Of a DNA stretch of 64,000 nucleotides, positions 2,977 through 43,934 are shown piece after piece. A program made the translations under genes and the position numbers. The stretch is from the NCBI GenBank assembly GCA_947494995.1, contig CANLWY010000001.1, forward strand, positions 186,001-250,000, in the 5' to 3' direction. The DNA is from an uncultured Campylobacterales bacterium (GTDB taxonomy: Bacteria > Campylobacterota > Campylobacteria > Campylobacterales > Arcobacteraceae). A model generated the notes under the pieces. The model saw only the letters and a program-made list of their open reading frames with translations. It did not search any database and had not been told where the DNA came from. Numbering within the stretch: position 1 is the first letter of the stretch; each line of letters starts with the position of its first letter.

Positions 2977-4124
2977 AATTCTAATATAAAAGTTGTCTCT
3001 TCTGATAACTTTGATTTTACATGAAGTTTAATATTGTATTTTTTACAAACTTCATTTACAATATTAAGCCCAATACCAAAGCCACCACTTTGAGTGGTGG
3101 CTCTATAATATCTATTAAAAATATCTTTTATCTTTTTTTCTTCTATACCAATTCCTGTATCTTTTATACTTAAAGTATTTTTTTGTAGTTTAATTGATAT
3201 TGAGCCTTTTTGTTTATTGTATTTAATGGCATTAGAGATAATATTGTTAAAAAGTCTAATAAAATCATTTTCGTCTATTTCATAGTTAGTTGTTTCTAGT
3301 TTTGTTGAAATAGTAATGTGTTTTTTCTCAGCAAGAGCTTCAAAGTATTTTAATTGTTCTTCAATTAACTCTTTTAAATTATGCATTTTTATTTGAGACT
3401 TATCTTCTTTGTCTTCTAAGAATATGTAAGTTAAATCTTTATATATCTCAGATACTTTTTGGGCTGCTAGTTGTATCCTTTGCACTTGTTTTTTTGTTAA
3501 TTCTTCATTTTCTGAAGACATTAAAATAGCACTAATTGGAGTATTTAACTCATGTGTTGTATCTTTTATAAAGTTATTAAGTTTTTCTCTTTCATCTTTT
3601 ATTGGTTTTAAAAAAAGCTTTGCAAGAAAAAAACCTATTAGTGCAATAATTGAATAGATGATTAGAAAAAGAATGATAATTCTATTTTGAAGAGATTGAA
3701 TTGTTTTAAAAAATAGGTTCTCTTTTATTGCTATATAGTAGACTCCAAGATGTCCATAGGTTGAATCATCTACAAGGATAAAGTATTGGTCTTTTTCAAT
3801 GATTTTTTTAGAGAAATCAATTTTCTCTTCAAGGTTTCCAAACATTTTTTTCTTTTTATCATCATAAAAAGAGATTTGATAGAGATTGGTTTTGAAGAAC
3901 TGTGAAGAGTCTAAACTTCTATCTTGCATATGAGCAAATATTATTTGAGAAGATATATTAGAGACAACATTTTGCATTTTTGTTTTTGTTAAATCAAAAT
4001 ATAGTTTTTTTTCATTTTGATAATAAAGTAAGGCAATAAGCATCATTAAAATAAAAGAACCACCTAAATAAAGAGTAAAAAAACGTATAAAAGTTCTTTT
4101 TTCACTATGGGTTAAATCTAAAAT
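2973..4124 (-). CDS. Sensor histidine kinase (no adjacent regulator), probable AUU start
   Basis: Membrane histidine kinase paralogous to the one at 15200-16357. The first ATG (4046) falls inside TM1, but the open frame and similarity to the paralogue continue upstream through [10 protein letters not shown] to codons just after an AAAGGAG at 4130-4136. No ATG, GTG or TTG occurs there, so I place the start at the ATT at 4124 (spacing 5; 383 aa). Layout: TM1 about 15-35, a periplasmic domain of about 120 residues, TM2 near 155-177, H-box THELNTP with His near 191, N-box [11 protein letters not shown], and G-boxes DTGIGIE and GFGIGLNI. The periplasmic domain shares AHM and GHLGV with its paralogue, possible metal ligands. 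No response regulator adjoins it; the closest partner candidate is the regulator at 9484-10143, on the far side of the copper cassette. Confidence 0.85.
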
Positions 4125-4216
4125 AATAACTCCTTTATTCAGACGTAGTAAAGAATAACATAATTTTATTTTTAGATAAATTAATTTCCATTCTGCCTAC
4201 ATAGAAGAATATACCT

Positions 4217-4254
4217 AAAAAATGAAAGCCTCCAAGAGTATTTATCATGGAGGC
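4217..4254 (-). terminator. Intrinsic terminator of the copper ATPase operon
   Basis: Read on the minus strand, GCCTCCA at 4254-4248 pairs with TGGAGGC at 4234-4228 across a 13-base loop and is followed by TTTCATTTTTT. It lies about 85 bases beyond the copA stop. Confidence 0.75.
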
Positions 4255-4338
4255 TAAAAGGAGTGATGAATAAATCATCTTCAAATGAAAAATTATAAAA
4301 TTATAGTAGTTATTTGAGGAGAATGTATGGAAATCTAA

Positions 4339-6519
4339 TTATATTTTTTTCATTTTAAGTCTTAATGAATTTAAAATAACAGTAAGCGAACTAAAACTCA
4401 TGGCAATTCCTGCATACATTGGACTAAGCATTATTCCAAAAAAAGGATATAAAACTCCAGCAGCTAATGGTATACCTAAGGTATTATAAGCAAAGGCCCA
4501 AAAAAGGTTTTGCTTAACAATTTTCATACTTTCAATTGAAAGATTAATACTTTTTATTACTGAGTTTAATTCATTATTAATAAGTACAATATCACCAGCA
4601 TCTTTACTAATATCGGCTCCTGAATTTAAAGTTATTCCTATGTTAGCCTGTTTTATAGATGGTGCATCATTTATACCATCTCCTATAAACATCACTTTTG
4701 ATTCTTTTTGTAAGTTTTTTATTACTTCATATTTTTCAGTTGGAATCACTTGTGAATAAACTTTTTCAATTTCTAGTTTTTTAGCTACTTTTGAAGCTGT
4801 GATACTATTATCTCCTGTTAAAAGAATAGGAGTAATACCCATTACTTTTAAACTTTTAATTACATCTTTAGCCTCATCTTTTATTTCATCTTCTAAAGAG
4901 AAAGAGCCAAGTGTTTTTTTATCAATACTTACTAAAATAACTCCATTTGAGTTTTCAAGCTCTTTTTCATAAAAGTTTAAATGTTCTTTAGAGATTAAAA
5001 CACTATTTTCACTTAGAAGCTTTTTATTACCTAGGATAAATTCTTTTTTACCTATAGTTGCTTTGATTCCGTGTCCTGGAATTATAGTAATCTCATCGAT
5101 TTGTTCATTTACAGGGATATTTTGTTTTTCTACAAAGGAAACAATAGCTTTAGAAATAGGATGTTCACTATATTTTTCAATGGAAGCAATAGTATTAAAA
5201 TAGTTTTTGTCTATATCTGTTTTAGTAACTTTTATATTCCCTTTTGTAAGAGTTCCAGTTTTGTCAAAAACAGCATATTTGATATTTTTAATCTCTTCTA
5301 AAATTTCAGGATTTTTAATTAATATTCCCTCTTTTGCACCCCTACTAACTGAGCTTACTATGGCAATTGGAGTGGCTAGTCCTAAAGCACATGGACAAGA
5401 GATAATCAGGACACTAATACTTGCAATAATTGCATTTTGAAAATCACCAATAAAAATAGCCCATATAAAAAAAGTAAGAAAAGATACTATTATTACTGAG
5501 GGAACAAATATATTAGCAATCTTATCTGCAAATCTACTAATAGGGATCTGTTTACTTTGAGCTGATTTTAAAAGTGAAATAATTTTTGCTAAGGTAGTAT
5601 CTTTTGACTCTTTTAAAACTTCTATAGTAATAATTCCATTTGTATTTAATGTCCCTGATAATATTGTGTCTTTACTTTTTTTAAACACTGGCAGTGATTC
5701 TCCTGTTATCATAGAGGTATCAATATCTGCTTCTCCTTCTATAATAATTCCATCTGCGGGAATTTTTTCACCCGTTTTTACTAAAACTTTATCTCCTATT
5801 TTTAAACTGTTTGCTAAAACAGTTTCCACACTCTTATCCTCTTTTATAATATTCGCATTTAAAGGAGCTAAGTTCATTAGTTTTTTTAAAAAATCACTAG
5901 CTTTTTGTTTTGAATTCTCTTCTAAAAATCTTCCTAAAATCATAAAACTAATAATTACAGCTGCTCCATCAAAGTACATAAATCGTAAGTTTTCTGGAAA
6001 TAAAGAGGGGAAAAATAGAACTATAGTAGAATAAAAATAAGCTGCACTAGTACCAAGGGCAACTAATACATTCATATCATAGTTCTTGTTTGAAATAGCC
6101 TTAAAAGCAAGAGAATAGAATCTTGATCCACAATAAAACTGAACTAAAGAAGCTAAAAGAAATATAACATAGGGTTTAATTGAAATATCAAGAATATTTG
6201 AAAAAGCAAAAAAGAAAATAGCTATTGTAATACTGATTGATATAAGAAATAGTTTTTTTAAGTTTTTAAAGTTTTTTAATTGTTCTTCTTCTAACTCCTT
6301 TAAATCTTCTTCAATCTTATATCCTAACTTTTCAATGTTTTCTATAAGTTTTTCTTTTGAATAAATCTGTGTATCAATTTCAAAAGAGCCTTCATGTGAT
6401 GCAAAACTAACCTTTGTATCTAAAATACCTTTTTGTTTATTTAAGAATTTTTCAATGCCATTAGAACAATTTACACAAGTCATTCCTGATATATTTAGAG
6501 TAATCTTTTTTTTAGCCAT
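4339..6519 (-). CDS. copA: Copper-translocating P1B-type ATPase
   Basis: Exports cytosolic Cu(I) across the inner membrane using ATP. One N-terminal heavy-metal-associated domain carries GMTCVNC (Cys15, Cys18). Around eight membrane segments follow, with the ion-path motif SCPCALGLATP near residue 375 and the actuator motif TGES. The phosphorylation site is DKTGTLT near 417, the nucleotide-domain motif is SEHP, and GDGINDAP lies near 610. The CPC motif together with a late AMSFSS segment indicates Cu(I) specificity. The ATG at 6519 is preferred over 6537 because an AGAGAG lies 5 bases upstream, and it overlaps the arsR-type gene by 8 bases. It is the third gene of a copZ-arsR-copA operon under the operator at 7096-7140. 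About 726 aa, normal for the family. Confidence 0.95.
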   Translation of the reverse strand: MAKKKITLNISGMTCVNCSNGIEKFLNKQKGILDTKVSFASHEGSFEIDTQIYSKEKLIENIEKLGYKIEEDLKELEEEQLKNFKNLKKLFLISISITIAIFFFAFSNILDISIKPYVIFLLASLVQFYCGSRFYSLAFKAISNKNYDMNVLVALGTSAAYFYSTIVLFFPSLFPENLRFMYFDGAAVIISFMILGRFLEENSKQKASDFLKKLMNLAPLNANIIKEDKSVETVLANSLKIGDKVLVKTGEKIPADGIIIEGEADIDTSMITGESLPVFKKSKDTILSGTLNTNGIITIEVLKESKDTTLAKIISLLKSAQSKQIPISRFADKIANIFVPSVIIVSFLTFFIWAIFIGDFQNAIIASISVLIISCPCALGLATPIAIVSSVSRGAKEGILIKNPEILEEIKNIKYAVFDKTGTLTKGNIKVTKTDIDKNYFNTIASIEKYSEHPISKAIVSFVEKQNIPVNEQIDEITIIPGHGIKATIGKKEFILGNKKLLSENSVLISKEHLNFYEKELENSNGVILVSIDKKTLGSFSLEDEIKDEAKDVIKSLKVMGITPILLTGDNSITASKVAKKLEIEKVYSQVIPTEKYEVIKNLQKESKVMFIGDGINDAPSIKQANIGITLNSGADISKDAGDIVLINNELNSVIKSINLSIESMKIVKQNLFWAFAYNTLGIPLAAGVLYPFFGIMLSPMYAGIAMSFSSLTVILNSLRLKMKKI

Positions 6520-6877
6520 GATACTCTCTTTTGTCATTTAGGAGAATTTTTAATAGTTCTCTTACTGAATCGTTTTTTATATAATAAAAAGACATCTTTT
6601 TATCTTTTGTAAAATCCACAATCTCATATTTTCTTAAAACTTTTAATTGATGTGAAACGTGTGACTGTGGAAGTTCTAAAATATTAACCATCTCTCCAAC
6701 ACAGATTTCATAATCCATCAATGCATATAAAATCTTAAGTCTTGTTGGATCACTTAATGCTTTAGTCACATTAGATATAGTTTTAAGCAGTTCATCATTT
6801 GGCAAAGCATTTTTAATGTCAGAGATAAAACTTACACCTTCACAGCAAGAACGAATTAATTTTGGTTGATTTTTCAT
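6512..6877 (-). CDS. ArsR/SmtB-family metal-sensing repressor
   Basis: Winged-helix repressor of 121 residues. The central segment LSDPTRLKILYAL and the recognition region LPQSHVSHQLKVLRK are typical of ArsR/SmtB proteins. It has an N-terminal Cys pair (Cys11-Cys12) and a further Cys59 in EICVGEM, the position of the alpha-3 metal site in ArsR/CadC proteins; N-terminal plus alpha-3 cysteines recall CadC-like or copper-sensing members. It sits between copZ and copA, so it probably responds to Cu(I) and derepresses its own operon through the CATATG repeats upstream of copZ. The metal is inferred from the neighbours only. Confidence 0.88.
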   Translation of the reverse strand: MKNQPKLIRSCCEGVSFISDIKNALPNDELLKTISNVTKALSDPTRLKILYALMDYEICVGEMVNILELPQSHVSHQLKVLRKYEIVDFTKDKKMSFYYIKNDSVRELLKILLNDKREYHG

Positions 6878-6878
6878 A

Positions 6879-7085
6879 TTAATCTTCTATAATATTAAAT
6901 CCAAGCTCTTCCATCTCTTTTTTGAAATTAGATTCTTGGGTTTCATCAGAAATTTCAACACTAACTTCTTTAGGCTCTGTAGTTAGATTTATTTCAATCT
7001 TTCCAAATTGTTCTTCAAGTGAAACTTTTATCAAGTTTGAACAACTTCCACAAGCTATATTTTCTGCTTTAAATATTTTTTTCAT
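6879..7085 (-). CDS. copZ: CopZ-like copper chaperone (HMA domain)
   Basis: Single heavy-metal-associated domain of 68 residues with the metal site IACGSC (Cys12 and Cys15), which would hand Cu(I) to CopA in the cytosol. The usual MxCxxC methionine is replaced by isoleucine-alanine (IAC). An in-frame GTG at 7094 exists, but the ATG at 7085 is 8 bases from AAAGG and gives a normal family start, MKKIFKAENI. It is the first gene of the copZ-arsR-copA operon, immediately behind the repeated operator; only one base separates its stop from the next start. Confidence 0.88.
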   Translation of the reverse strand: MKKIFKAENIACGSCSNLIKVSLEEQFGKIEINLTTEPKEVSVEISDETQESNFKKEMEELGFNIIED

Positions 7086-7095
7086 ATTAGACACC

Positions 7096-7140
7096 TTTCA
7101 TATGTAAAATTATTCATATGAAAATATTATCATATGAAAA
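7096..7140 (-). promoter_or_regulatory. Triple CATATG operator for the ArsR-type repressor
   Basis: CATATG occurs at 7099, 7115 and 7131, exactly 16 bases apart, each flanked by T on the left and A on the right. Neighbouring copies form two overlapping imperfect inverted repeats of the ATATGA-N8-TCATAT type, which is the known SmtB/ArsR operator style. The block ends 10 bases from the copZ start, where a bound repressor would block the promoter. Confidence 0.75.
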
Positions 7141-7160
7141 GTGTTTTGTCAAATATGATT

Positions 7161-7192
7161 CTAAGAAAAGAGTAAAATTAATCTTTTCTTAG
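7161..7192. terminator. Hairpin overlapping the stop of the haem-binding protein gene
   Basis: CTAAGAAAAGA (7161-7171) and TCTTTTCTTAG (7182-7192) form an uninterrupted 11-base-pair stem with a 10-base loop that includes the stop codon of the gene ending at 7178. There is no clean T-run after it on the minus strand, so it may stabilise a 3' end or terminate weakly. Confidence 0.45.
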
Positions 7193-7744
7193 TAGTTCTA
7201 TAGCATTATTAGTCCAAATTAGCATGGCTTTTTTATCTTTTTCACTTAATTTAGAATCCCAATGTGCAACTATATACCTAAGTGGTGGCATTCCTCCTTC
7301 AAGTGCTATTTTTTTAAGACTTTTTAAATCATTTATAGGTGTTTCATGGGAGATAAAAGGAAAATCTTTAGAAAAATCAATATGTGTTTTAGCCTCTTTT
7401 ATATCCTTGTCAATCATTGTTTTTACACCTGGAATTTTATAATAGAAAGGATAGTTTATAGTATTTGAATGACAATTGAAACATTTAGTTTCAAATATTG
7501 GCTTTATATCTTTTAGATAGTCCGCATTTATTTTTTTATATTTATTTTGTAATACCTCATATTGTTTTTTCTTCTTTTCATACTTTATTACTTCTTCTTT
7601 TGTGGCATCCTCTTTTATTTTTTTTGGTGCTTCAATTTTTACAGTTTTCATCTCTTTATCATCATGTTTTTCTGTCCCATGAGCAAATGCCCAAACACTA
7701 AGTAGACTAAAAAATATTATTGATATTAAAAGTTTATTTTTCAT
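7178..7744 (-). CDS. Exported haem-binding (c-type cytochrome-like) protein
   Basis: Secreted protein of 188 residues with a signal peptide (MKNKLLISIIFFSLLSVWAF, cut near AFA-HG), a lysine- and glutamate-rich charged helix around 30-75, and one CFNCH haem attachment motif near 88-92. After it come a conserved PFYYKIPG stretch and a late GGMPPLRY, as in single-haem Haem_bd-type proteins. The ATG at 7744 is taken because AAGGA lies 6 bases upstream and it overlaps the oxidase stop as ATGA. Co-translation with the multicopper oxidase suggests it passes electrons to or from that enzyme in the periplasm; this role is inferred from context. Confidence 0.75.
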   Translation of the reverse strand: MKNKLLISIIFFSLLSVWAFAHGTEKHDDKEMKTVKIEAPKKIKEDATKEEVIKYEKKKKQYEVLQNKYKKINADYLKDIKPIFETKCFNCHSNTINYPFYYKIPGVKTMIDKDIKEAKTHIDFSKDFPFISHETPINDLKSLKKIALEGGMPPLRYIVAHWDSKLSEKDKKAMLIWTNNAIELLRKD

Positions 7745-9159
7745 AACCATTCCTTTTTTACTATAAACTGACCCATCATTCCTGCATCTTCATGTTCAAG
7801 TATATGACAATGATACATATATGGGTATTCTTTAGTTGCTTCATATTCAAATTTAACTGCGACATCAACAGTTTCATTTCCATATATAAGAACAGTGTCT
7901 TTTAATCCTGTTTCATTTGGATAGGGTTTATATCCATTTCTTGATAGGATTTTAAAACTACACCCATGGATATGAAATGGATGAGGCATCCGTTGAGAGT
8001 TTTTTATTCTCCAAATCTCTGTTTCTGCTAAGTTAACTTCTTCATCAATTCTTTTCATGTTCATTTGTTTTCCATTAATTGCTAACCATCCAGGTCTCAT
8101 ATCTAGAGAAAACTCTCTTATTTTTGGAGAATCTAATTGTGTATACTCTTTTATTGTGGTTAACTTTTTAGGTATTGAAAACTTTTGTTTCTCTTCATTT
8201 TTGACATTGATTTTAAGAAGGCCTTTTCCTGCTAATTCATCACCAAATAGAATTTCTTTTCCCGCAAGGTCAGTTAAATCTATTAAAATTTCTGCTCTTT
8301 CTCCTGGACTCAAAAGTAGGGTATTCATTTTTATAGGCTTTGGAAGAAAACTTGAATCCCCAGCTATTTGATAAAAATCTCTTTTATCATTAAACATAAA
8401 CCTACTTATTCTTGCATTTGAGCCATTTAAAATTCTAAATCTTATGGTTTTAGGGCTTACATTTACATATGGGTCTATCACTCCATTTACAAGTGAAAAG
8501 TTTCCCGTAACTCCCATCATAACATCATGCATTGATTGTTTATAAAGGAATTGACCTTTCATGTCAAATCTTCTATCTTGGAAAACTAAAGGAATATCAT
8601 CAACTCCATACTCTTTTGGAATGTCAAGTTTTTTTGAATCTTCATCTTCTATTATAAAAAGTCCTGCTATTCCCATAAAAACTTGTGCCCCAGTTCTTTC
8701 ATGAGTATGGGGATGATACCAACACATTGAAGAGCGCTGATTTATTTGAAATTGGGTAGTCCATATTTTATTTGGATGAATTGATCTATTTGGACCTCCA
8801 TCATTTTCTCCTGGAACTTTTAGTCCATGCCAATGAATGACTGTCTCTTCATCCAATGAGTTTTTTACCTTCATTTTTAGAGTATCATTTCTATTAACTC
8901 TAATTGTTGGCCCTAAAAAGTCTGTATTTATACCGTATGTATTTGTTTCTACACCTTTTAGAAAGTTAACTTTTCCTTTTTGTACATTTAAATCAAATTC
9001 TTTGATTCCATTAATGACTTTTGGTTCTAAAATAGGAGGTATAGCAAGAGGTTTAGAAAAAGAAGGAAATGTTCCAATAATTTTTTTTTGTTCATTTGCA
9101 AACAATGTATTACTTATGGAAGTTAATAATCCTAATTTTACAAAATCTCTTCTTTTCAT
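7741..9159 (-). CDS. Multicopper oxidase with Tat signal (CueO/CotA type)
   Basis: Periplasmic oxidase, likely converting Cu(I) to Cu(II). The ATG at 9159 has AAGGA 7 bases upstream and starts the twin-arginine signal MKRRDFVKLGLL; the longer in-frame start would bury it. Copper ligand motifs appear in order: HWHGLKVPG, CWYHPHTHERTG, HPFHIHGCSF and YHCHILEHEDAGMMG, which together supply the type 1 Cys-His-Met site and the trinuclear cluster. About 472 residues, usual for three-cupredoxin oxidases. It leads a two-gene unit with the haem-binding protein and lies next to copZ-arsR-copA. C. jejuni has a comparable CueO enzyme. Confidence 0.92.
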   Translation of the reverse strand: MKRRDFVKLGLLTSISNTLFANEQKKIIGTFPSFSKPLAIPPILEPKVINGIKEFDLNVQKGKVNFLKGVETNTYGINTDFLGPTIRVNRNDTLKMKVKNSLDEETVIHWHGLKVPGENDGGPNRSIHPNKIWTTQFQINQRSSMCWYHPHTHERTGAQVFMGIAGLFIIEDEDSKKLDIPKEYGVDDIPLVFQDRRFDMKGQFLYKQSMHDVMMGVTGNFSLVNGVIDPYVNVSPKTIRFRILNGSNARISRFMFNDKRDFYQIAGDSSFLPKPIKMNTLLLSPGERAEILIDLTDLAGKEILFGDELAGKGLLKINVKNEEKQKFSIPKKLTTIKEYTQLDSPKIREFSLDMRPGWLAINGKQMNMKRIDEEVNLAETEIWRIKNSQRMPHPFHIHGCSFKILSRNGYKPYPNETGLKDTVLIYGNETVDVAVKFEYEATKEYPYMYHCHILEHEDAGMMGQFIVKKEWL

Positions 9160-9234
9160 TTTAGTTTCCTTTGATTTTTTCGTAAATACCAGTTGAACCA
9201 TCTTTAGCTATATATATAATATTGTAAGCTTATT

Positions 9235-9351
9235 TTATATTCCCTTGTTCCCTTCATAGGATTCCACGTGCCTTTCAACTACATATCCATCAACTATTGT
9301 AGTATGACAAGAAACTGTTGAAGTGTAATACCTAGCTCTTGGTTTTAAACA
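9235..9351 (-). pseudogene. Remnant of a DUF411 metal-binding protein gene
   Basis: Between the oxidase and the next regulator, a 38-codon frame bounded by stops reads SCHTTIVDGYVVERHV in its middle. This matches the hallmark C-terminal part of DUF411 proteins (usual form SCHT-x-V-DGYVxEGHVP), small periplasmic proteins often found in copper-resistance clusters. The N-terminal CxxCxxW-type half and the end of the domain are missing, there is no start codon or ribosome site, and the usual EGHVP is degraded to ERHVE. I read it as the decayed tail of a third copper gene once following or preceding the oxidase. Confidence 0.65.
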
Positions 9352-9435
9352 TTACAATATCCTGTAATTAAAGAATTATTACATTTATTTGTGGAAAGAG
9401 TATGGAGTGTATAGTTAATAAAATAAAACCTAATC

Positions 9436-9477
9436 TTTGTATTTTACATACAAAATCCACAAAAGTTTTATTATAAT
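9436..9477 (+). promoter_or_regulatory. Promoter and palindrome upstream of a response regulator gene
   Basis: TATAAT at 9472-9477 ends 6 bases before the ATG at 9484, and no ribosome site is present, so the transcript should be leaderless. A perfect inverted repeat, TTTGTAT-TTTAC-ATACAAA, lies at 9436-9454, a plausible regulator-binding site over the -35 region. Confidence 0.55.
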
Positions 9478-9483
9478 ACTATT

Positions 9484-10143
9484 ATGAAAATTTTATTACT
9501 AGAAGATGATACTTTATTAAATGAAATAATTGAAGAGTTTTTAGAAGAGTTAGGACACGAAGTACATAGTACTTTTGATGGAGAAGAGGCTTTAGAGGCT
9601 GTTTATGAAAATAGTTTTGATTTACTTCTTTTAGATGTAAATGTTCCTTCTTTGAATGGTTTTGATTTATTAAAAAATTTAAGAGAGAACTCTATAGATA
9701 TACCAACTATTTATATAACTTCTTTACATACTTCAAAAGATATGGAAAAAGGGTTTAAATCAGGAGCTGATGATTATATTAAAAAGCCTTTTCATTTAAG
9801 TGAATTAGAACTTCGTATTAATAATATTAAACGTTTAAGACAAATTGAAAACACAGGAGAGCAAAGAGTCTCTTCTTCTATTTCTTATAGTTATGATACA
9901 AAGTTTATTGTAGTTGATGATATAGAAACACGCTTATCTAAAATAGAAGCAAAAGTCTTTGAGTATCTTTTAAAAAATAAAGATAAATCAGTGTCAATTG
10001 AAGAGATAGCTTTAAACAATTGGATTTATGATGAGGTACCAACTGACACAACAATTAGAACATATATTAAAAACCTTCGTAAAGTCTTAGGAAAAGAGAG
10101 AATTCTAAATATCAAGGGAATAGGGTACAAACTTAATCTTTAA
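9484..10143 (+). CDS. OmpR/PhoB-family response regulator (copy 1)
   Basis: 219-residue regulator: receiver domain about 1-115 (acidic pair LLEDD, phospho-acceptor Asp51 in LLDVNVPS, lysine in IKKPF near 101) and a C-terminal winged helix ending GIGYKLNL. It is close to the regulator at 16338-16997 along its whole length, so the two are paralogues. That other copy adjoins its kinase, whereas this one does not; the paralogous kinase at 2973-4124 is its likely partner, split off by the copper cassette. It is followed 27 bases later by another regulator-kinase pair. Copper-related control is an inference from position. Confidence 0.9.
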   Translation: MKILLLEDDTLLNEIIEEFLEELGHEVHSTFDGEEALEAVYENSFDLLLLDVNVPSLNGFDLLKNLRENSIDIPTIYITSLHTSKDMEKGFKSGADDYIKKPFHLSELELRINNIKRLRQIENTGEQRVSSSISYSYDTKFIVVDDIETRLSKIEAKVFEYLLKNKDKSVSIEEIALNNWIYDEVPTDTTIRTYIKNLRKVLGKERILNIKGIGYKLNL

Positions 10144-13598: not shown

Positions 13599-15203
13599 AT
13601 GTTAGAGATAATTATATTTACACTTCTTATTTCTACTATATTAAATATAGTGTTAAAGAAGTTTGGAATCCCTACAATTATTAGTTATATATCAACTGGA
13701 ACAATTATTGCATATAGTTTTAATCTTCATGATGCAGTAAATAACCATGATTTAAAACAGATTGCAGAGTTTGGAGTTGTATTCTTAATGTTTACAATAG
13801 GTTTAGAGTTTTCTATGAAACATTTAATAAAAATGAAAAAAGAGGTGTTCCTTTATGGTGCATCTCAAGTAATTATAACTGCAACTTTTTTTACTTTAAT
13901 AGGACACTATCTTTTTGATATAAATCTTAAGACATCAATAATTATTGGACTTGCTTTAGCGCTTTCTTCTACAGCAATTGTTCTAAAAGTTTTAAATGAG
14001 AGTGGAGATATAAACAAAGTATATGGGAGAAAAGTATTAGGTGTTTTACTTTTTCAAGATATAGCAGTAATTCCGATTCTTCTTATGATTACTATTTTTT
14101 CAATGGAAGGAGAGTCTGTATCTTCTTTATTAACAAAAACTTTTATAGATGCAACTATTTTATTAATTGGACTTTTTCTTGTTGGAAAGTATGTATTAGA
14201 GCCATTTTTATATAGTGTAGCAAAAACAAAATCTAATGAGATATTTATAAGTTCTATTTTACTATTAGTTATTGGAACATCATATTTAGCTCATCTTTTT
14301 GGATTCTCATACTCATTAGGTGCATTTATTGCAGGTATGATGATTGCTGAAACACATTATAAACATCAAGTTGAAGCTGACTTAATCCCTTTTAGAGATT
14401 TGCTTTTAGGGATATTCTTTATTACTGTAGGTATGCAACTTGATTTTAAAATAATATATGAAAATATTAGTAGTATTATGGTACTACTTCCTTTATTGAT
14501 AATATGTAAAATCTTAATTCTTTATGCAATTATGAGATTTACAGCAACTAAAAGAACTTCACTAAAAACAGCTATCTCGCTATTTCAATTAGGAGAGTTT
14601 GCACTTGTGATTTTTGAATTATCTTTTGCAAGAGATTTAATAGAACAAACTCTTGGACAGATACTAATAGTTACTGTTGTTTTATCTATGATAATGACAC
14701 CATTTGTACTAAAGAATCTATCAAAAATAATAGATATTATAAATAATAAAAAAGATAGAAACAAAGATATTCATGAAATTCATAATGAGAAACTTCAAGG
14801 ACATATTATTTTAATTGGTTTTGGAAGATTGGGAAGAAGTATCTCTAAATTAATAAAAGAGAATGACAAAGAGTTTATAGCTATAGAAAGTGATATAAAG
14901 AATGTAATTGAAGCCCAAAGACAAGGAGATCCTGTGATATATGGGAATGCTTCAAAAAAAGATATTCTAAAGTCTGTAAATATACAAGAGGCTTCTTCTG
15001 TAATAATATCTGTAGGAAATAGTGAAAAACTAATTCATATTTGTGAAGTTGTAAAAGAGATGGCACAAGATAAAAAGACCATTGTTAAAGTGAATAAATA
15101 TGAAGAGAAAGAAAATTTAGATAGGTTAAAACTATCTCATATCGTTGTAGAGACAGAAAAAACAGCAAAAGCCATGTATGAAGAGTCTACACAAATATCC
15201 TAA
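13599..15203 (+). CDS. CPA2-family cation/proton antiporter with RCK domain (KefB-like)
   Basis: 534 residues. The N-terminal 370 or so form about 12-13 membrane helices with family signatures such as GVVFLMFTIGLEFS, ALSSTAIVLKVL and FGFSYSLGAFIAGMM. The rest is an RCK/TrkA-N nucleotide-binding domain with GFGRLGRS near 406 and an acidic residue (IESD) at the end of the second strand. K+ efflux or K+/H+ exchange under NAD(H) control is the usual role; KefB and YbaL-like proteins share this layout. No C-terminal TrkA-C domain is evident. Start follows the nhaA stop by one base; the 3' end overlaps the convergent kinase gene by 4 bases. Confidence 0.9.
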   Translation: MLEIIIFTLLISTILNIVLKKFGIPTIISYISTGTIIAYSFNLHDAVNNHDLKQIAEFGVVFLMFTIGLEFSMKHLIKMKKEVFLYGASQVIITATFFTLIGHYLFDINLKTSIIIGLALALSSTAIVLKVLNESGDINKVYGRKVLGVLLFQDIAVIPILLMITIFSMEGESVSSLLTKTFIDATILLIGLFLVGKYVLEPFLYSVAKTKSNEIFISSILLLVIGTSYLAHLFGFSYSLGAFIAGMMIAETHYKHQVEADLIPFRDLLLGIFFITVGMQLDFKIIYENISSIMVLLPLLIICKILILYAIMRFTATKRTSLKTAISLFQLGEFALVIFELSFARDLIEQTLGQILIVTVVLSMIMTPFVLKNLSKIIDIINNKKDRNKDIHEIHNEKLQGHIILIGFGRLGRSISKLIKENDKEFIAIESDIKNVIEAQRQGDPVIYGNASKKDILKSVNIQEASSVIISVGNSEKLIHICEVVKEMAQDKKTIVKVNKYEEKENLDRLKLSHIVVETEKTAKAMYEESTQIS

Positions 15204-16357
15204 CTTTTAAAAGTTAGGGTAAATGTGGTTCCCACATTCTCTTCTGATTCAACAGCAATTTTAATGTCATAGGCTTCACAAATATAATAAACAATATTTA
15301 GTCCAATACCAAAACCACCTTGCTCTTTTGTAGCTCTATAGTATCTATTAAAAATATCTTTTAAAAGCTCTTTTTTTATTCCAATACCTGTATCTTCTAT
15401 TTTTAGAGTATTGTTTTTTAGTTCTATATGAATTGAACCTTCTATTTTATTATATTTTATAGCATTTGAAACAATATTATTAAACATACGGATAAAGTTC
15501 TCTTTATCCATTTTGAAGATTGTTGGTTCTAAGTTTGCTGTAATATCTAATTTCTTTTTTGTTGCAAATGCTTCAAAATAATCAAGTTGTTCCTTTATGA
15601 TTTCATCAACTTTTAAATCTGTAGGTTTATGTTGTTTAGAACTATCTTGCAAAAATAGATATACTAAGTCTTTATAGATTTCTGAAATTCTTTTTGCACT
15701 TAAATTTACTCTTTGCATATTTTTTTCTGTTAGAGGTGAACCTTTTCCTGTACTCATTAAAATAGCTGTAATAGGAGTGTTTAACTCATGTGTAGTATCT
15801 TTTATAAAATTGTTTAGTTTAATTCTTTCATTCATAATAGGACTAATAAACATACTTGCTAAGTAGTAACCAATTACAGCAATAATTGAGTAGATAACAA
15901 AGAAATAAAAATAGAGTTTTTCAAGTAAAGACTCAATTCTACTATGAAAGATATTCTCTCTAATTACAATATGGTGAACACCTAAGTGACCTCTTGGTGT
16001 TGAGTCAACAAGGACAAAGCTATCATCTATTTTCTGGATTTTTTTTGATATATCTATAGGTGTTTCAATATTACCTATTAGTTTTCTATGGTTCCTATCA
16101 TAAAGTGCATAGTCATATTTAATAAATTTAGCCATTTTTGCTGTGTCTATAGTCATCTCTGCCATATGCGCATAAATAATACTAGAAGATACTTTTGATG
16201 CAACATTTTGCATATTTGAAGTAATTAGATCGTATTGAAGCCTTGATTCCATTTTATAAAATAGAAAAAAGATGATGGATAATAGTATAAAAGAAGAACC
16301 TAAATATAGTCCTAAGAATTTACGAAAGGTATTTCTCTCACTTCTTGTTAAATCTAT
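15200..16357 (-). CDS. Sensor histidine kinase beside the RiPP locus, probable AUA start
   Basis: Paralogue of the kinase at 2973-4124. The first ATG (16252) would cut TM1, while the frame and similarity extend upstream through DLTRSERNTF. The only start-like position after AAAGGAG (16364-16370) is ATA at 16357, spacing 6, giving about 385 residues; no ATG, GTG or TTG lies in that stretch and a stop sits just above it. Layout: TM1 about 15-35, periplasmic domain rich in His and Met (AHMAEM, GHLGVHHIVI), TM2 near 160-180, H-box THELNTP (His near 200), NNIVSNAIKYN, DTGIGIK and GFGIGLNIV. Overlaps the end of its response regulator gene by 20 bases. Divergent neighbours form the copper-RiPP unit, so Cu sensing is a reasonable guess. 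Confidence 0.85.
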   Translation of the reverse strand: MDLTRSERNTFRKFLGLYLGSSFILLSIIFFLFYKMESRLQYDLITSNMQNVASKVSSSIIYAHMAEMTIDTAKMAKFIKYDYALYDRNHRKLIGNIETPIDISKKIQKIDDSFVLVDSTPRGHLGVHHIVIRENIFHSRIESLLEKLYFYFFVIYSIIAVIGYYLASMFISPIMNERIKLNNFIKDTTHELNTPITAILMSTGKGSPLTEKNMQRVNLSAKRISEIYKDLVYLFLQDSSKQHKPTDLKVDEIIKEQLDYFEAFATKKKLDITANLEPTIFKMDKENFIRMFNNIVSNAIKYNKIEGSIHIELKNNTLKIEDTGIGIKKELLKDIFNRYYRATKEQGGFGIGLNIVYYICEAYDIKIAVESEENVGTTFTLTFKS

Positions 16358-16997
16358 AACCCACTCCTTTTATAGTCTCTATGTACTCTTCCCCAATGAT
16401 TTTTCTAATATTTTTAATATAAGTTCTAATTGTTGAAGATGTTGGTGCTGCTTCATATGACCATATGTTTGATGATAGCTCATCTTGAGATACACATCTA
16501 TTTGTATTATTTAAAAGATATTTTAATATTTGTGCTTCTTTTAGTGGAAGCTTTGTCTCAATAGTATCATTGTTTATATAGTTAAGCTTTGTGTTAAATG
16601 TGATATTCTCTCCAATTTCTAGCTCATCCTCTTCTAAATGAAGTAATCTTTTTATATTGTTTATTCTAAGTTCTAGTTCTTTTAGTTCAAAAGGTTTTTT
16701 AAGATAATCGTCAGCACCTGATTTGAAACCTTCTTCAATATCATCAACAGAGTCCAAAGATGTAATAAAAATTGCAGGAGTCGTAATATTACTGTCTCTT
16801 AAAGATTTTAAAAATTCAAAACCTGTCATATTTGGGACATTTACATCTAATATAAGTAAATCAAACTGTTCATCATAAATGATTTCACTTGCCTTCATAC
16901 CGTCATATACAGCAGTAACTTCATAACCTAAGTCTTGTAAGAACTCTTCTATAATCTCATTTAATATTAAGTCATCTTCTAATAGTAGTATTTTCAT
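16338..16997 (-). CDS. OmpR-family response regulator (copy 2)
   Basis: 219 residues: receiver with LLEDD, Asp51 in LILDVNVPN and lysine in LKKPFE, then a winged-helix domain ending GVGYRFNKK. Co-transcribed with the kinase whose start overlaps its end. It is a close paralogue of the regulator at 9484-10143 and begins with the same MKILLLEDD. Upstream, TATACT at 17005-17010 ends 7 bases before the ATG and no ribosome site is seen, so the mRNA is predicted to be leaderless. It is transcribed away from the YceI-RiPP unit, which is the obvious candidate target. Confidence 0.92.
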   Translation of the reverse strand: MKILLLEDDLILNEIIEEFLQDLGYEVTAVYDGMKASEIIYDEQFDLLILDVNVPNMTGFEFLKSLRDSNITTPAIFITSLDSVDDIEEGFKSGADDYLKKPFELKELELRINNIKRLLHLEEDELEIGENITFNTKLNYINNDTIETKLPLKEAQILKYLLNNTNRCVSQDELSSNIWSYEAAPTSSTIRTYIKNIRKIIGEEYIETIKGVGYRFNKK

Positions 16998-17050
16998 AAA
17001 TAATAGTATATCATATAAAAAAACAAATAATCCCCACAGACTCTACACAA

Positions 17051-17075
17051 TAACTTAACAAAGTTACAATATACT
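17051..17075 (+). promoter_or_regulatory. Promoter and inverted repeat of the YceI-RiPP unit
   Basis: TAACTT-AACA-AAGTTA (17051-17066) is a perfect inverted repeat directly upstream of a TATACT -10 box at 17070-17075. Its place between a divergent response regulator gene and the yceI gene makes it a candidate binding site for that regulator. Confidence 0.5.
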
Positions 17076-17106: not shown

Positions 17107-17685
17107 ATGAAATTAATTACTAAAATTCTTGCAGTATCTGCATTAACATTTAGTTTGGCAAATGCAACACCTCATTCATTAGATGTCGCACATACAGAAG
17201 TAGGTTTTTCTGTAAAGCACTTAATGATTACGAATGTAAAAGGTGAATTTACCGATTTTGGGGCAGATATTGATTTTGATTATAAAACTAAGACATTTAA
17301 TAAATTAAATGCAACAATTCAAACAAAATCTGTAGATACTGGTATTGTAAAAAGGGATAACCATCTAAGAAGTGAAGATTTCTTTTTAGCTGAAAAACAT
17401 CCTCAAATCACTTTTAATATGAAATCATACGAAGCTGATGGAGATGAAGGTATTATGACTGGAGATTTAACTATAAGAGGTACTACTAAAGAAGTAAAAC
17501 TTCAAGTTGAAGATTTAGGAACAGTTAAGGATTTTGAAGGTAATAATAGAGTTGGATTCTCTTTAAGAGGGAAGATTAATAGAACAGATTTTGGTTTAAA
17601 ATGGAATAAAGCTTTAGAACTTGGTGGTTTAGCAGTAGGTGAAAAAGTGAAATTAATAATAGAAGTTGAAGCAGTAGAAAAATAA
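17107..17685 (+). CDS. YceI-family periplasmic protein (copy 1)
   Basis: 192 residues with a signal peptide (cut near ANA-TP) and the complete YceI lipocalin-like barrel: HTEVGFSVKHLMI at the start, DNHLRSEDFF in the middle, MTGDLTIRGTTKEV, and NRTDFGLKWN near the end. YceI proteins bind polyisoprenoid-type lipids in the periplasm and are often stress-induced; the exact role here is unknown. Strong ribosome site (AAGGAG) 7 bases before the ATG. It leads the unit that contains the Cys-rich peptide, the MNIO enzyme and the HvfC-like protein, 28 bases upstream of the peptide gene. A second YceI gene lies at 43368-43934. Confidence 0.93.
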   Translation: MKLITKILAVSALTFSLANATPHSLDVAHTEVGFSVKHLMITNVKGEFTDFGADIDFDYKTKTFNKLNATIQTKSVDTGIVKRDNHLRSEDFFLAEKHPQITFNMKSYEADGDEGIMTGDLTIRGTTKEVKLQVEDLGTVKDFEGNNRVGFSLRGKINRTDFGLKWNKALELGGLAVGEKVKLIIEVEAVEK

Positions 17686-17713
17686 AAAATAAAATTAATA
17701 AAAAGGGAAAAAG

Positions 17714-18082
17714 ATGAAAAATACAAAAATAAAATTAGCAGGAATCCTATTAGGAGCAGCATTAGCAAGTACAGGAGCATATGCAGGAAATGGTTCTTGT
17801 GGAGCTGGTAAATGTGGTGGTTCAGATGCTAAGAAAATGGAAAAGAAAGGTTCTTGCGGTGCTGGTAAGTGCGGTGGAGACATGAAGAAGAAAGAGATGA
17901 AATCAGGTTCTTGTGGAGCTGGTAAATGTGGTGGAGATATGAAAAAACCTGCAGATGAAATGTCAGGAAAAGCTGGTAAAAAAATGTCAGGATCTTGTGG
18001 TGCTGGTAAATGTGGTGGTGACATGAAAAAAGAAGGTAAAAAGAAAGCATCAGGTTCTTGTGGAGCTGGTAAATGTGGTTGA
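17714..18082 (+). CDS. Bufferin/HvfA-like Cys-rich RiPP precursor with five GSCGAGKCG repeats
   Basis: 122-residue precursor. A signal peptide (MKNTKIKLAGILLGAALAS, cut after AYA) is followed by five copies of GSCGAGKCG spaced by lysine-rich linkers with DMKK elements. The repeats hold ten cysteines, the only ones in the protein. In the known HvfA and bufferin peptides, cysteines in EGKCG cores are converted by a DUF692 enzyme into copper-binding heterocycles and the product acts in the periplasm as a copper scavenger. Here the core reads AGKCG, without the glutamate. The enzyme and partner genes follow directly. Function by analogy; the modification itself cannot be read from sequence. AAAGGGAAA precedes the ATG. 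Confidence 0.88.
   Translation: MKNTKIKLAGILLGAALASTGAYAGNGSCGAGKCGGSDAKKMEKKGSCGAGKCGGDMKKKEMKSGSCGAGKCGGDMKKPADEMSGKAGKKMSGSCGAGKCGGDMKKEGKKKASGSCGAGKCG
17792..18079 (+). repeat. Five in-frame repeats encoding GSCGAGKCG
   Basis: Five near-identical 27-30 base units, beginning GGTTCTTG or GGATCTTG and ending AAATGTGG or AAGTGCGG, are spread through the peptide gene with spacers of 33 to 60 bases. They differ mainly at third codon positions, as expected of repeats kept by selection on the protein. Confidence 0.85.
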
Positions 18083-18127
18083 TTTTCAACCACAAGCATT
18101 AAAATAGTATAGAAGGCAAAAAAGATA

Positions 18128-18949
18128 ATGATAAAAGTAGATGGGTGTGGTTTAGGTTTAAGAAGTGATTTCCTTTTGGATGTAGCTGAAAGTAAATTTC
18201 AGCCAGATTGGTGGGAAGTGACTCCTGAAAACTGGATGCATATGCCAAAACTTTTTGAAAAGGCTTTTGAAGAGGCAGTTTTCTCAAGACCAACAGTAGC
18301 CCACGGTTTATCATTATCAATTGGCTCTGTTGATAAACTTAATCGTAAGTTTGTTAAACAGATTAAAACTTTTCTTGATAGATACAATATTGAGTATTAT
18401 TCTGAGCATCTTTCTTTCTCTTCTTTAGAGGGAAAACAATCTTATGAACTTTTACCTGTTCCCATGACTAAAAACATGGTTGATATAATAAGTGATAGAG
18501 TAAAAGAGGTTGAGGATATTATTCAAAGAAATCTTATCTTGGAAAATGCAACATACTATTATGTTCCATACTCTGAGATGAGAGAAGTTGATTTTATAAA
18601 TGAAGTTCTTGAGAAATCAGGTGCAAAGATGCTTCTAGATGTAAATAATGTCTTTGTAAATTCAGTGAATCATACTTTTAAGGCTAGAAGATTTATTGAT
18701 GAAATAGATAAAAGTAAAGTTGCTTATATGCATATGGCAGGTCATTATTTTGATGAAGCTTCAAAAATGAAAATTGATTCTCATGGTATGCCCATAAATT
18801 CTGGTACATGGAAACTTTTAGAGTATACTTTAAATCAAATAGATGCTCCTGTTATGATAGAAAGAGATAATAATATACCTCCTTTAACAGAATTAGCAAA
18901 AGAGTATAAGCAGATGAAAAAAATAGTTAAAAGAGTTAGAAATGCCTAA
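18128..18949 (+). CDS. DUF692-family MNIO enzyme (BufB/HvfB-like)
   Basis: 273 residues, a multinuclear non-haem iron-dependent oxidative enzyme with a TIM-barrel fold. Family landmarks in order: VTPENWMH, HGLSLSIGS, EHLSFSS, LLPVPMT, ILENATYYY, LLDVNNVFVNSVNH, MHMAGH, DSHGMP and IERDNNIPPL; the His, Glu, Asp and Asn in these build the iron site. Known relatives oxidise cysteines of HvfA/bufferin peptides. It lies between the AGKCG-repeat peptide and the HvfC-like gene, whose start it overlaps by 8 bases. It would act in the cytosol before the peptide is exported. The ribosome site is weak (AAGGCAAAAAAG). Confidence 0.93.
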   Translation: MIKVDGCGLGLRSDFLLDVAESKFQPDWWEVTPENWMHMPKLFEKAFEEAVFSRPTVAHGLSLSIGSVDKLNRKFVKQIKTFLDRYNIEYYSEHLSFSSLEGKQSYELLPVPMTKNMVDIISDRVKEVEDIIQRNLILENATYYYVPYSEMREVDFINEVLEKSGAKMLLDVNNVFVNSVNHTFKARRFIDEIDKSKVAYMHMAGHYFDEASKMKIDSHGMPINSGTWKLLEYTLNQIDAPVMIERDNNIPPLTELAKEYKQMKKIVKRVRNA

Positions 18950-19628
18950 GATGGAAAAAGATATAGAAGATAGATTCTTTGATATTTTGATTGATCAAAA
19001 AGATGGTTTTTCAGGTACGCCTATAAACGTATATCAAAAATTAGTATATACTAGATATGAAGAGGTGATAAAGAATTCTCTTCCTTTATTTATTGATAAA
19101 ATTACTCAAAGCGAACTTCAAGAATCAATAATAAAGTTTATGAAAGATACTCCAAAAACGCCTTTTGTATGGCAGATACCAAATGATTTTAGAAAGTTTA
19201 CAAAGAAAAAAAGACTTTTTCATGATCGAAAATATCTTTATGATCTTATGTATTATGATTGGATTGAAATTGAACTTTATATGAAGGAATATAAACTAAA
19301 ACCTCAAAAGAAGTTTAGATATAAAGAGTCATATAAACTATCAAAAACAGCAAGAGTAAAAAAATTTAATTTTGATATTATAGGAAATGATTATAAATCA
19401 AAAAGAGAGAATTATTTAGTCATTTATTATGATTTTGATATGGATGATATCATTTATAGAGAAATAAATCCTCTTATTTACTATGTTTTAAAAACTTTAA
19501 ATAAAAAGAAGTCTTTCGAAAAAGTTATAAAAGAGCTTTGTAAAGTAAATGATATAGATTATAAAGAGGCAAAAACTGTTTTAAAAAATCCTTTTTTAGA
19601 ACTTTATAAAAAAAGAGTTTTTTCTTAA
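18942..19628 (+). CDS. DUF2063/HvfC-like partner of the MNIO enzyme
   Basis: 228 residues. The N-terminal part (VYQKLVYTRYEEVIKNSLPL) has the shape of the DUF2063 domain of HvfC/BufC proteins, in which a YR.....L..ayP-like segment is typical. The C-terminal half is lysine- and tyrosine-rich and contains YLVIYYDFDMDD followed by a short helical domain. In known systems this protein binds the precursor and assists the MNIO enzyme. It is divergent, so the call leans on its overlap with the DUF692 gene and its size. Last gene of the unit; no clear terminator before the AraC gene. Confidence 0.72.
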   Translation: MPKMEKDIEDRFFDILIDQKDGFSGTPINVYQKLVYTRYEEVIKNSLPLFIDKITQSELQESIIKFMKDTPKTPFVWQIPNDFRKFTKKKRLFHDRKYLYDLMYYDWIEIELYMKEYKLKPQKKFRYKESYKLSKTARVKKFNFDIIGNDYKSKRENYLVIYYDFDMDDIIYREINPLIYYVLKTLNKKKSFEKVIKELCKVNDIDYKEAKTVLKNPFLELYKKRVFS

Positions 19629-43367: not shown

Positions 43368-43934
43368 TTATTTAGTTAAGATACCTTCTAGTTCAATATC
43401 TAGTTTTATCTTATCTCCAACTGCAACGCCACCAGCTTCTAAAACTTTATTCCAAGTAATACCAAAATCTTTTCTATTAATTTTTCCACTAAATGCTAAT
43501 CCCACCCTTATATTTCCCCAAGGATCTTTTATTGAGCCATTGTTTTCAAAATCTAATTTAATATCTTTTGTTACGCCTTTCATTGTAAGTTTTCCATATG
43601 CAGAATCTTCTACAATCTTATCTAAGCTAAATACTATTTTTGGAAATTTTTTAGCATCAAATATATCTGGTGCTCTTAAGTGGTCATCTCTTTTTTTATT
43701 GTCAGTATTAATTGAATTCACTTCAATATTACCAATTAAAGATTTTAATTGATTTGTTTTTTCATCATATTCAAACGAACCATCAAACTTATTAAATTTT
43801 CCACTTACATTAGAAATCATCATATGTTTTACTTTAAAACCTACATTTGAATGACCTGTATCAACATTATATGTTCCACCAAAAAGTGCACTTGCAGCTA
43901 AAATTGAAGCTAATCCTACTTTTACTAATTTCAT
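43368..43934 (-). CDS. YceI-family periplasmic protein (copy 2)
   Basis: 188 residues with a signal peptide (cut near LFG-GT) and the YceI barrel: TGHSNVGFKVKHMMISNV, RDDHLRAPDIF and NRKDFGITWNKVLEAGGVAV. It is a paralogue of the protein at 17107-17685, but differs in control: a perfect TAGTACTA palindrome lies 19 bases upstream of its start, between it and the marR gene. First gene of the probable three-gene unit with the FMN reductase and pirin. Confidence 0.92.
   Translation of the reverse strand: MKLVKVGLASILAASALFGGTYNVDTGHSNVGFKVKHMMISNVSGKFNKFDGSFEYDEKTNQLKSLIGNIEVNSINTDNKKRDDHLRAPDIFDAKKFPKIVFSLDKIVEDSAYGKLTMKGVTKDIKLDFENNGSIKDPWGNIRVGLAFSGKINRKDFGITWNKVLEAGGVAVGDKIKLDIELEGILTK

Follow-up and report, generated by a model that had tools for sequence, protein, structure and literature searches.

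We analysed a 64,000-nucleotide stretch of DNA (hereafter the window) from an uncultured Campylobacterales bacterium of the family Arcobacteraceae (contig CANLWY010000001.1, positions 186,001 to 250,000), which contains a putative copper-related locus for a ribosomally synthesized and post-translationally modified peptide (RiPP). Four genes on the plus strand, between positions 17107 and 19628, form a single tight unit. They encode, in this order, a YceI-family protein (17107..17685; PF04264, 149.2 bits, cut-off 23.7), an HvfA-like RiPP precursor of 122 amino acids with 10 cysteines (17714..18082), a multinuclear non-heme iron-dependent oxidative enzyme (MNIO, DUF692) of 273 amino acids related to HvfB and BufB (18128..18949; PF05114, 290.8 bits) and a PME1/HvfC partner of 228 amino acids (18942..19628; PF22106, 30.0 bits, cut-off 27). 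The distances between successive genes are 28 bp (YceI/peptide), 45 bp (peptide/MNIO) and –8 bp (MNIO/partner). No terminator-like site was found between 16900 and 19800, and a σ70 promoter scan gave 17 sites against 16.6 expected from shuffles, which is no better than shuffled DNA. Divergently from the unit, on the minus strand, lie the genes for an OmpR-family response regulator (16338..16997; PF00072 and PF00486) and a sensor histidine kinase (15200..16252, counted from the first ATG; PF02518 and an alignment of 11 kinases). The genome encodes only this one MNIO. As stated in the initial annotation of the locus, DoxX is absent from the unit, and the only DoxX match of the genome is located on another contig. 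The window also holds another YceI gene, at 43386-43871 on the minus strand (contig 229386-229871). The gene order of the unit is found again in relatives, and conservation of the peptide and the unit there rules out a chance repeat or a non-coding open reading frame.

The precursor starts with a Sec-type signal peptide, judged by eye (MKNTKIKLAGILLGAALASTGAYA, 17714..17785, plus strand), followed by exactly the five GSCGAGKCG repeats initially described (17792..17818, 17849..17875, 17906..17932, 17990..18016 and 18053..18079, all plus strand). Its five-residue units are xGSCG and AGKCG as opposed to the EGKCG type; nonetheless, it passes the NCBI HvfA-repeat domain model NF050137 (32.8 bits, cut-off 19.5). 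With the HvfA equivalog model NF050188 it reaches 23.3 of 95 bits, below the cut-off, and no Pfam family matches it; the DUF2282 domain of bufferin precursors is likewise missing. In the MNIO, 22 H/D/E/N/R positions are shared with at least 97% of 85 aligned MNIOs, and none of the positions conserved in at least 95% of the 84 others is altered, in agreement with the intact active site noted before. The partner stays under the cut-off of PF09836 (14.7 bits, cut-off 27.2). Its AlphaFold model (predicted local distance difference test score 88.4) has the PME1 protein 3dee as best PDB match (E 1.6e-06, template modelling score 0.67), followed by TglI of TglHI, supporting its assignment as a DUF2063/HvfC-like protein. 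An MNIO, a PME1 partner and a Cys-rich repeat precursor are thus found together, as in captophorin and HvfABC systems, and protein families, catalytic residues and partner fold agree with the copper-type MNIO locus of the HvfABC kind that had been proposed.

Based on these features and the comparisons described below, we consider it likely that the unit is an Arcobacteraceae-specific version of the HvfABC/captophorin (MNIO plus PME1) type of RiPP operon and responds to copper stress. The neighbouring two-component system, with periplasmic copper or redox stress at the envelope as its probable signal, would activate the unit via the tandem CTACACA sites. Before export, the partner would grip the precursor in the cytoplasm by the LGAAL region of its Sec signal peptide, and the MNIO would oxidise repeat cysteines, most likely to 5-thiooxazoles, with a mass change of –4 Da each and at most ∼–40 Da for ten. 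The peptide would then be exported by Sec and could buffer periplasmic copper alongside systems of the CopA, CueO and Cus types. YceI might take the accessory periplasmic place that DoxX/HvfX holds in other families.

The kind of system is itself known. For MNIO-PME1 systems with Lys-Cys repeats, the available texts of PMC13097082 and PMC13419390 describe the installation of 5-thiooxazoles and a link to copper; the copper-binding heterocycle mentioned in the initial annotation is now assigned as 5-thiooxazole. The HvfABC(X) oxazolin locus of Haemophilus influenzae likewise combines a Sec-signal precursor with Cys repeats, an MNIO and a partner bearing a RiPP recognition element, but it differs from the window by its AEGKCGEGKCG repeats and by a DoxX-like HvfX in place of YceI; the available text on it mentions no two-component system, whereas the window has one (PMC13419390). 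Captophorins such as fontiphorin (FonABC) share the MNIO-PME1 pair and Lys-Cys five-residue repeats; in contrast to FonABC, the xGSCG-AGKCG repeat of the window lacks Glu, and the equivalents of Arg16 and Phe250 of the enzyme are replaced (PMC13097082, available text). The Buf_EGKCG/oxazolin family and the bufferins also show a signal peptide, an MNIO, a DUF2063 partner and a copper role (PMC12452194, available text). Neither Campylobacter nor YceI is mentioned in the main text of PMC13097082, nor are YceI, Campylobacter or Arcobacter in that of PMC12452194, and our literature searches turned up no description of these loci in Campylobacterota. The initial annotation had placed EGKCG cores in Haemophilus and Caulobacter. 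This applies to Haemophilus; for Caulobacter, NF050137 gave no match in a control with 14 known genomes (0/14), unlike PF05114, which does match Caulobacter vibrioides. New are the operator, the copper surroundings, the changed contact sites and repeat, and the recurrent absence of the enzyme; the strongest of these results are the operator and the repeated finding of a retained peptide without its maturase.

Among 397 sampled Campylobacterota genomes, PF05114 matches occur in 28 (26 over cut-off) and NF050137 matches in 40; the corresponding numbers for 104 Arcobacteraceae genomes are 37 and 42. A peptide without a PF05114 match was found in 21/40 peptide-bearing genomes of the phylum sample and in 12/42 of the Arcobacteraceae. 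In a published survey, 67 of 2583 Buf_EGKCG genomes lacked an MNIO (PMC12452194, available text); that survey used its own model and our 21/40 rests on NF050137 at a loose E-value, so the contrast is only indicative. Duplicates were removed before counting (L109 = L029, L112 = L032, L039 = L200). Twenty-three further loci were fetched later: ten were repeats and not re-counted, and the 13 new ones comprise ten enzyme-bearing loci of the window's repeat type, G412, and two of another type. G436 and G438 (genus g71), with an Arg-Arg or Arg-Thr enzyme, were left out of the counts; GKCG repeats are present in G438, and no peptide was found in G436.

In 11 of the 12 enzyme-less Arcobacteraceae genomes (ten of genus g2, one of g7), the peptide occupies its home locus: Cus or two-component genes and YceI (10/11) precede it, and genes for MATE, a homoserine dehydrogenase and an aminotransferase follow, as they do after the unit in the window. 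The MATE gene follows directly after the enzyme-less peptide, on the other strand, at a distance of 29-59 bp in ten genomes and of 399 bp in L198, where a second peptide fills the gap (stop codons not counted in the genes). In the twelfth genome, G203, the peptide is of the KCG type and has DoxX and a GMC oxidoreductase as neighbours. G412 (genus g4), which is not among the 12 and was outside the partner search, also shows the order CusA-peptide-MATE with no MNIO at the peptide locus; its PF05114 match (50.8 bits) is partial, distant, also AP_endonuc_2-like and located on another contig. We considered whether an MNIO had been missed. A search of 30 genomes for the partner (NF050145 at E 0.001; no match reaches the curated cut-off) detected it only in the three with an MNIO and in 0/27 others, and four of the g2 genomes are single contigs with 99-100% completeness, which argues against this explanation; another enzyme-less genome, G405, is only 76% complete. 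In a proxy tree, two g2 genomes that have the enzyme branch among genomes that lack it, a pattern compatible either with several losses or with a single loss followed by a regain.

The enzyme-less peptides remain rich in motif cysteines. Cysteines fall inside a CGxGKCG motif in 180/180 cases in 22 enzyme-bearing peptides, 78/83 in ten later ones, and 84/105 in 12 enzyme-less peptides of 11 genomes, two of which (L155 and L198) have CxC-rich stretches. The ratio of non-synonymous to synonymous substitution rates (dN/dS) is 0.10-0.16 in four close enzyme-less pairs and reaches 0.57 within the 14 pairs listed, with medians of 0.29 without (45 pairs) and 0.22 with the enzyme (181 pairs). The values of the four close pairs counter the idea that the peptide is a decaying pseudogene. 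Hybrid peptides combining KCG-type repeats with metallothionein-like CxC stretches were seen in L157 (5674-6186), L155 (5715-6020), L198 (5713-6027), L168 (5703-6122) and L172 (6002-6340).

Regulation of the unit can be addressed through its upstream region. An alignment of 11 loci with a divergent regulator revealed a common intergenic direct repeat, CYMCACA-N4-CTACACA, with 11-bp spacing. Direct heptamers at this spacing are the layout expected of a site for an OmpR/PhoB-type regulator. In the window, the proposed operator reads CCCCACA-N4-CTACACA (17032..17049, plus strand), with a weaker third heptamer, CTTAACA, beside it at 17054-17060 (plus strand). Allowing up to two mismatches, we found the operator 33-277 bp upstream of the YceI or peptide gene in 21/22 enzyme-bearing Arcobacteraceae loci of this repeat type, in all ten fetched later, and in 11/12 enzyme-less loci (G412 included). 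This amounts to 42/44 loci, or 31/33 if the 11 defining loci are excluded; it was not found in L033 and L197. Outside the Arcobacteraceae type, only 3/17 enzyme-bearing Campylobacterota loci (L106, L115 and L117) have it. The sole exact match in the 3.17-Mb genome is the promoter of the unit; one match with one mismatch lies on another contig, the reversed pattern used as a control also gave one match, and ten mononucleotide shuffles of the window contained 0 or 1 sites per 64 kb. The response regulator is found next to the unit in many relatives. Co-conservation and the conserved operator together support the initial proposal of a two-component system dedicated to this unit.

The start of the kinase deserves a comment. 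Its frame is open upstream of the first ATG, and this upstream part includes the first membrane helix. In the region 15200-16380 (minus strand), 9/10 relatives have an in-frame TTG (GTTGGTTAT) immediately ahead of a conserved start that reads VI(D/V)LT. At this position the window has TGG; the substitution does not alter the protein encoded by the overlapping regulator gene. With the usual start lost, the kinase would have to use an unusual start such as ATA or be a shorter protein without the first membrane helix.

The signal peptide differs between precursors with and without the enzyme. The motif LG-[A/V]-A-[L/I], which reads LGAAL in the window (17750..17764, plus strand), is present in 22/22 signal peptides of enzyme-bearing Arcobacteraceae loci and in 10/10 of the later set. 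It is kept in only one of the 12 enzyme-less peptides (L154, genus g7), a second match (L197) being out of register, and is missing from the G412 peptide. LGFLL and LGLLL are among the states found in relatives without the enzyme. L193 and L200, the enzyme-bearing genomes nested among the enzyme-less ones of g2, have it. In other families, a looser LGx[GAST] occurs in 14/17 peptides with the enzyme versus 4/19 without; the motif of L101 lies beyond the tested stretch, and at least two of the four enzyme-less matches (L166 and L169) are out of register. Fisher's test for the leader motif gives p = 5e-07, a value that ignores relatedness and is not readable as a probability, with 10/12 enzyme-less home-locus genomes (G412 included) belonging to one genus. 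Read by eye, Pseudomonadota precursors mostly have G[ST]A at the corresponding place and an extra NPFxxxxLxxGY stretch that no Campylobacterota precursor shows. The co-occurrence of the motif with the enzyme points to the LGAAL region as a candidate recognition contact for the maturase complex. The pattern agrees with the preference of HvfBC for HvfA carrying its signal sequence, that is, with the signal peptide serving as leader, as described in the available text of PMC13419390.

These data can also be read differently. The peptide could chiefly be a thiol-based, metallothionein-like binder of periplasmic metal, with modification by the MNIO being optional and dropped by some lineages. We regard this as a serious contender that falls a little short of an even chance. 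The peptide-bearing genomes without PF05114 in both samples speak for it, as do the motif cysteines and CxC-type stretches kept at enzyme-less home loci, the low dN/dS of the four close pairs, the retained operator and the MATE gene directly behind the enzyme-less peptide. Against it, catalytic residues and signal-peptide motif are conserved wherever the enzyme is present, which argues that modification is selected there, and an unrelated modifying enzyme might be encoded elsewhere in the enzyme-less genomes. The copper-stress operon and an optional maturase can be joined in one reading, for and against which we see the balance as level: the peptide would be the durable part of a copper regulon and the maturase dispensable. 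MNIO and PME1 would have been lost more than once, while purifying selection kept the peptide where it was, still behind the same operator and acting in the periplasm as a thiol peptide without modification. LGAAL would decay once its duty as a leader ends, thereby marking the residues read by the maturase, and repeat and enzyme contacts would have changed together. Related bacteria with and without the maturase, at the same operon position and behind a like operator, provide a natural test of what a thiooxazole gains over plain thiols. Because the same kind of peptide exists with and without the enzyme, this question is testable by adding or removing one gene pair.

We next turn to substrate recognition. 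In FonB, the Glu at position 1 of the substrate is flanked by Arg15 and Arg16, and Phe250 faces the Lys and Gly around the Cys (PMC13097082, available text). Arg-Arg is found at the equivalent positions in 48/50 Pseudomonadota loci and Phe after ERD also in 48/50, the exceptions including truncated rows; their repeat peptides, where found, mostly read [E/D]xKCG. These loci do not form a random sample, having been chosen for their resemblance to the window enzyme. At the contact sites, the Hvf-related Histophilus enzyme 3BWW carries Arg-Arg and ERDF, unlike the window enzyme. The Phe250 equivalent is Asn in 39/39 distinct Campylobacterota loci, and the 22 Arcobacteraceae loci that carry the (S/A)CG-AGKCG repeat have Ser instead of the second Arg; the later set of the same type has Arg-Ser and ERDN in 10/10. 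Arg-Arg is retained in 13/17 other Campylobacterota loci (exceptions: L041, L095, L096 and L114), including L100 and L102, where the first Cys is not preceded by Lys. In 129 Cys pairs from 32 enzyme-bearing Arcobacteraceae loci of this repeat type, the residue before the first Cys is Ser (100), Ala (25), Gly (3) or Thr (1) and never Lys, Lys precedes the second Cys, and the second five-residue unit is mostly AGKCG without Glu. The EGKCG core assumed initially is therefore not that of this family. Taken together, the alignments suggest that repeat (Glu lost, Lys to Ser/Ala) and enzyme contact residues changed together in the Arcobacteraceae family, which offers a co-variation handle on MNIO specificity. 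The initial suggestion of a distinct branch holds. Support in the MNIO tree is weak, at 0.51 for a Campylobacterota clade and 0.69 for the Arcobacteraceae clade. Two Arcobacteraceae genomes, L099 and L104, carry the cluster type of other families (Arg-Arg enzyme, KCG repeats, DoxX), and their enzymes do not group with the Arcobacteraceae clade, suggesting that the cluster was transferred or represents a second, older type. L041, a Nitratifractor-titled contig, has two tandem Cys-rich precursor genes ahead of one MNIO (829-1373).

The remaining genes in question concern copper. A copper-type P1B ATPase (CopA-like; 4339..6537, minus strand; TIGR01511, 587 bits, cut-off 397) and a CueO-like multicopper oxidase (7741..9201, minus strand; NF008205, 462 bits, below the cut-off of 525; PF07732 and PF07731 over cut-off) are encoded ∼8-13 kb upstream of the unit. 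The metal-handling stretch 2973-10143 around them also contains a paralogous kinase, an ArsR regulator, a haem-binding protein and a paralogous response regulator. The genome's own CusA-type gene is located ∼23 kb upstream of the unit, beyond the window. In relatives, CusA is encoded 4 to 474 bp from the unit in 14/31 enzyme-bearing and 11/12 enzyme-less cases (25/43), and 4.5-6.5 kb away in L031 and L219. In L158, the gene for a copper-type ATPase lies ∼13 bp before a related lipoprotein-like peptide gene. The same arrangement of a CopA-type ATPase followed by a gene for a lipoprotein-like KCGAGKCG peptide was observed in L158 (3346-6022) and L161 (3436-5998), both in genomes without a PF05114 match.

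Several observations weigh against a copper-stress operon with thiooxazole chemistry. The MNIO remains below the cut-offs of the HvfB and BufB equivalog models (NF003818, 310 of 360 bits; NF050167, 247 of 310 bits), as does the partner for HvfC (NF050145, 73.8 of 142 bits). Both published substrate-contact positions are changed in the window enzyme (Arg16 to Ser, Phe250 to Asn). A Glu-to-Ala change between repeats lowered FonBC turnover (PMC13097082, available text), and Ala stands naturally at this position in the window peptide. On the regulatory side, a second operator-like site with two mismatches lies inside the kinase gene at 15795, and the kinase sensor domain, read by eye in the alignment of 11, shows no clear metal site or motif. 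Finally, the fetched stretch contains no CusA for 15/31 enzyme-bearing relatives.

Because of the low scores and changed contacts, another modification, or modification of one Cys per pair, is possible. The MNIO might install a different group or act on Lys-Cys only, leaving each repeat as a mixed thiol/heterocycle site with the first thiol free. This would fit the consistent difference between the residues preceding the first and second Cys, and the Ser and Asn at the contact positions. However, FonBC remained active on substrates whose Lys was replaced by Ala or Thr, and FonB variants at Arg16 and Phe250 retained activity (PMC13097082, available text), so that the changed residues signal altered recognition rather than lost chemistry; we consider this alternative unlikely. 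YceI proteins are general stress proteins, and together with the relatives lacking a nearby CusA this could mean that the unit answers another stress (soft metal, sulfide or oxidants) and stands near copper genes by coincidence, which appears quite improbable given CusA as a near neighbour in more than half of the relatives and the CopA gene just ahead of the peptide gene in L158.

Within the favoured copper-stress operon, the role of YceI can be narrowed by its distribution. The survey of Arcobacteraceae neighbourhoods suggested in the initial annotation showed that unit order, regulator and operator recur. YceI, described there as part of the unit, is so in the window but not throughout the branch: it is present in 21/32 enzyme-bearing and 10/12 enzyme-less loci of this repeat type (G412 included). 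DoxX occurs in 12/17 other enzyme-bearing Campylobacterota loci, none of which has a detected YceI, and also in G417; no locus holds both. The exchange of YceI and DoxX is thus real but lineage-bound. A blastp search for YceI near the 50 Pseudomonadota loci found none, but it also found no DoxX and was too insensitive to count. Since YceI persists with the peptide after the enzyme is gone, it may be tied to the job of the peptide rather than to its maturation. KCGAGKCG-type peptides near DoxX were also observed in L153, L166, L167, L169, L170 and L171, from genomes without a PF05114 match and most of them with a GMC oxidoreductase; in L153, the HvfX model NF050144 is over its cut-off and a Gluconate_2-dh3 protein is encoded as well.

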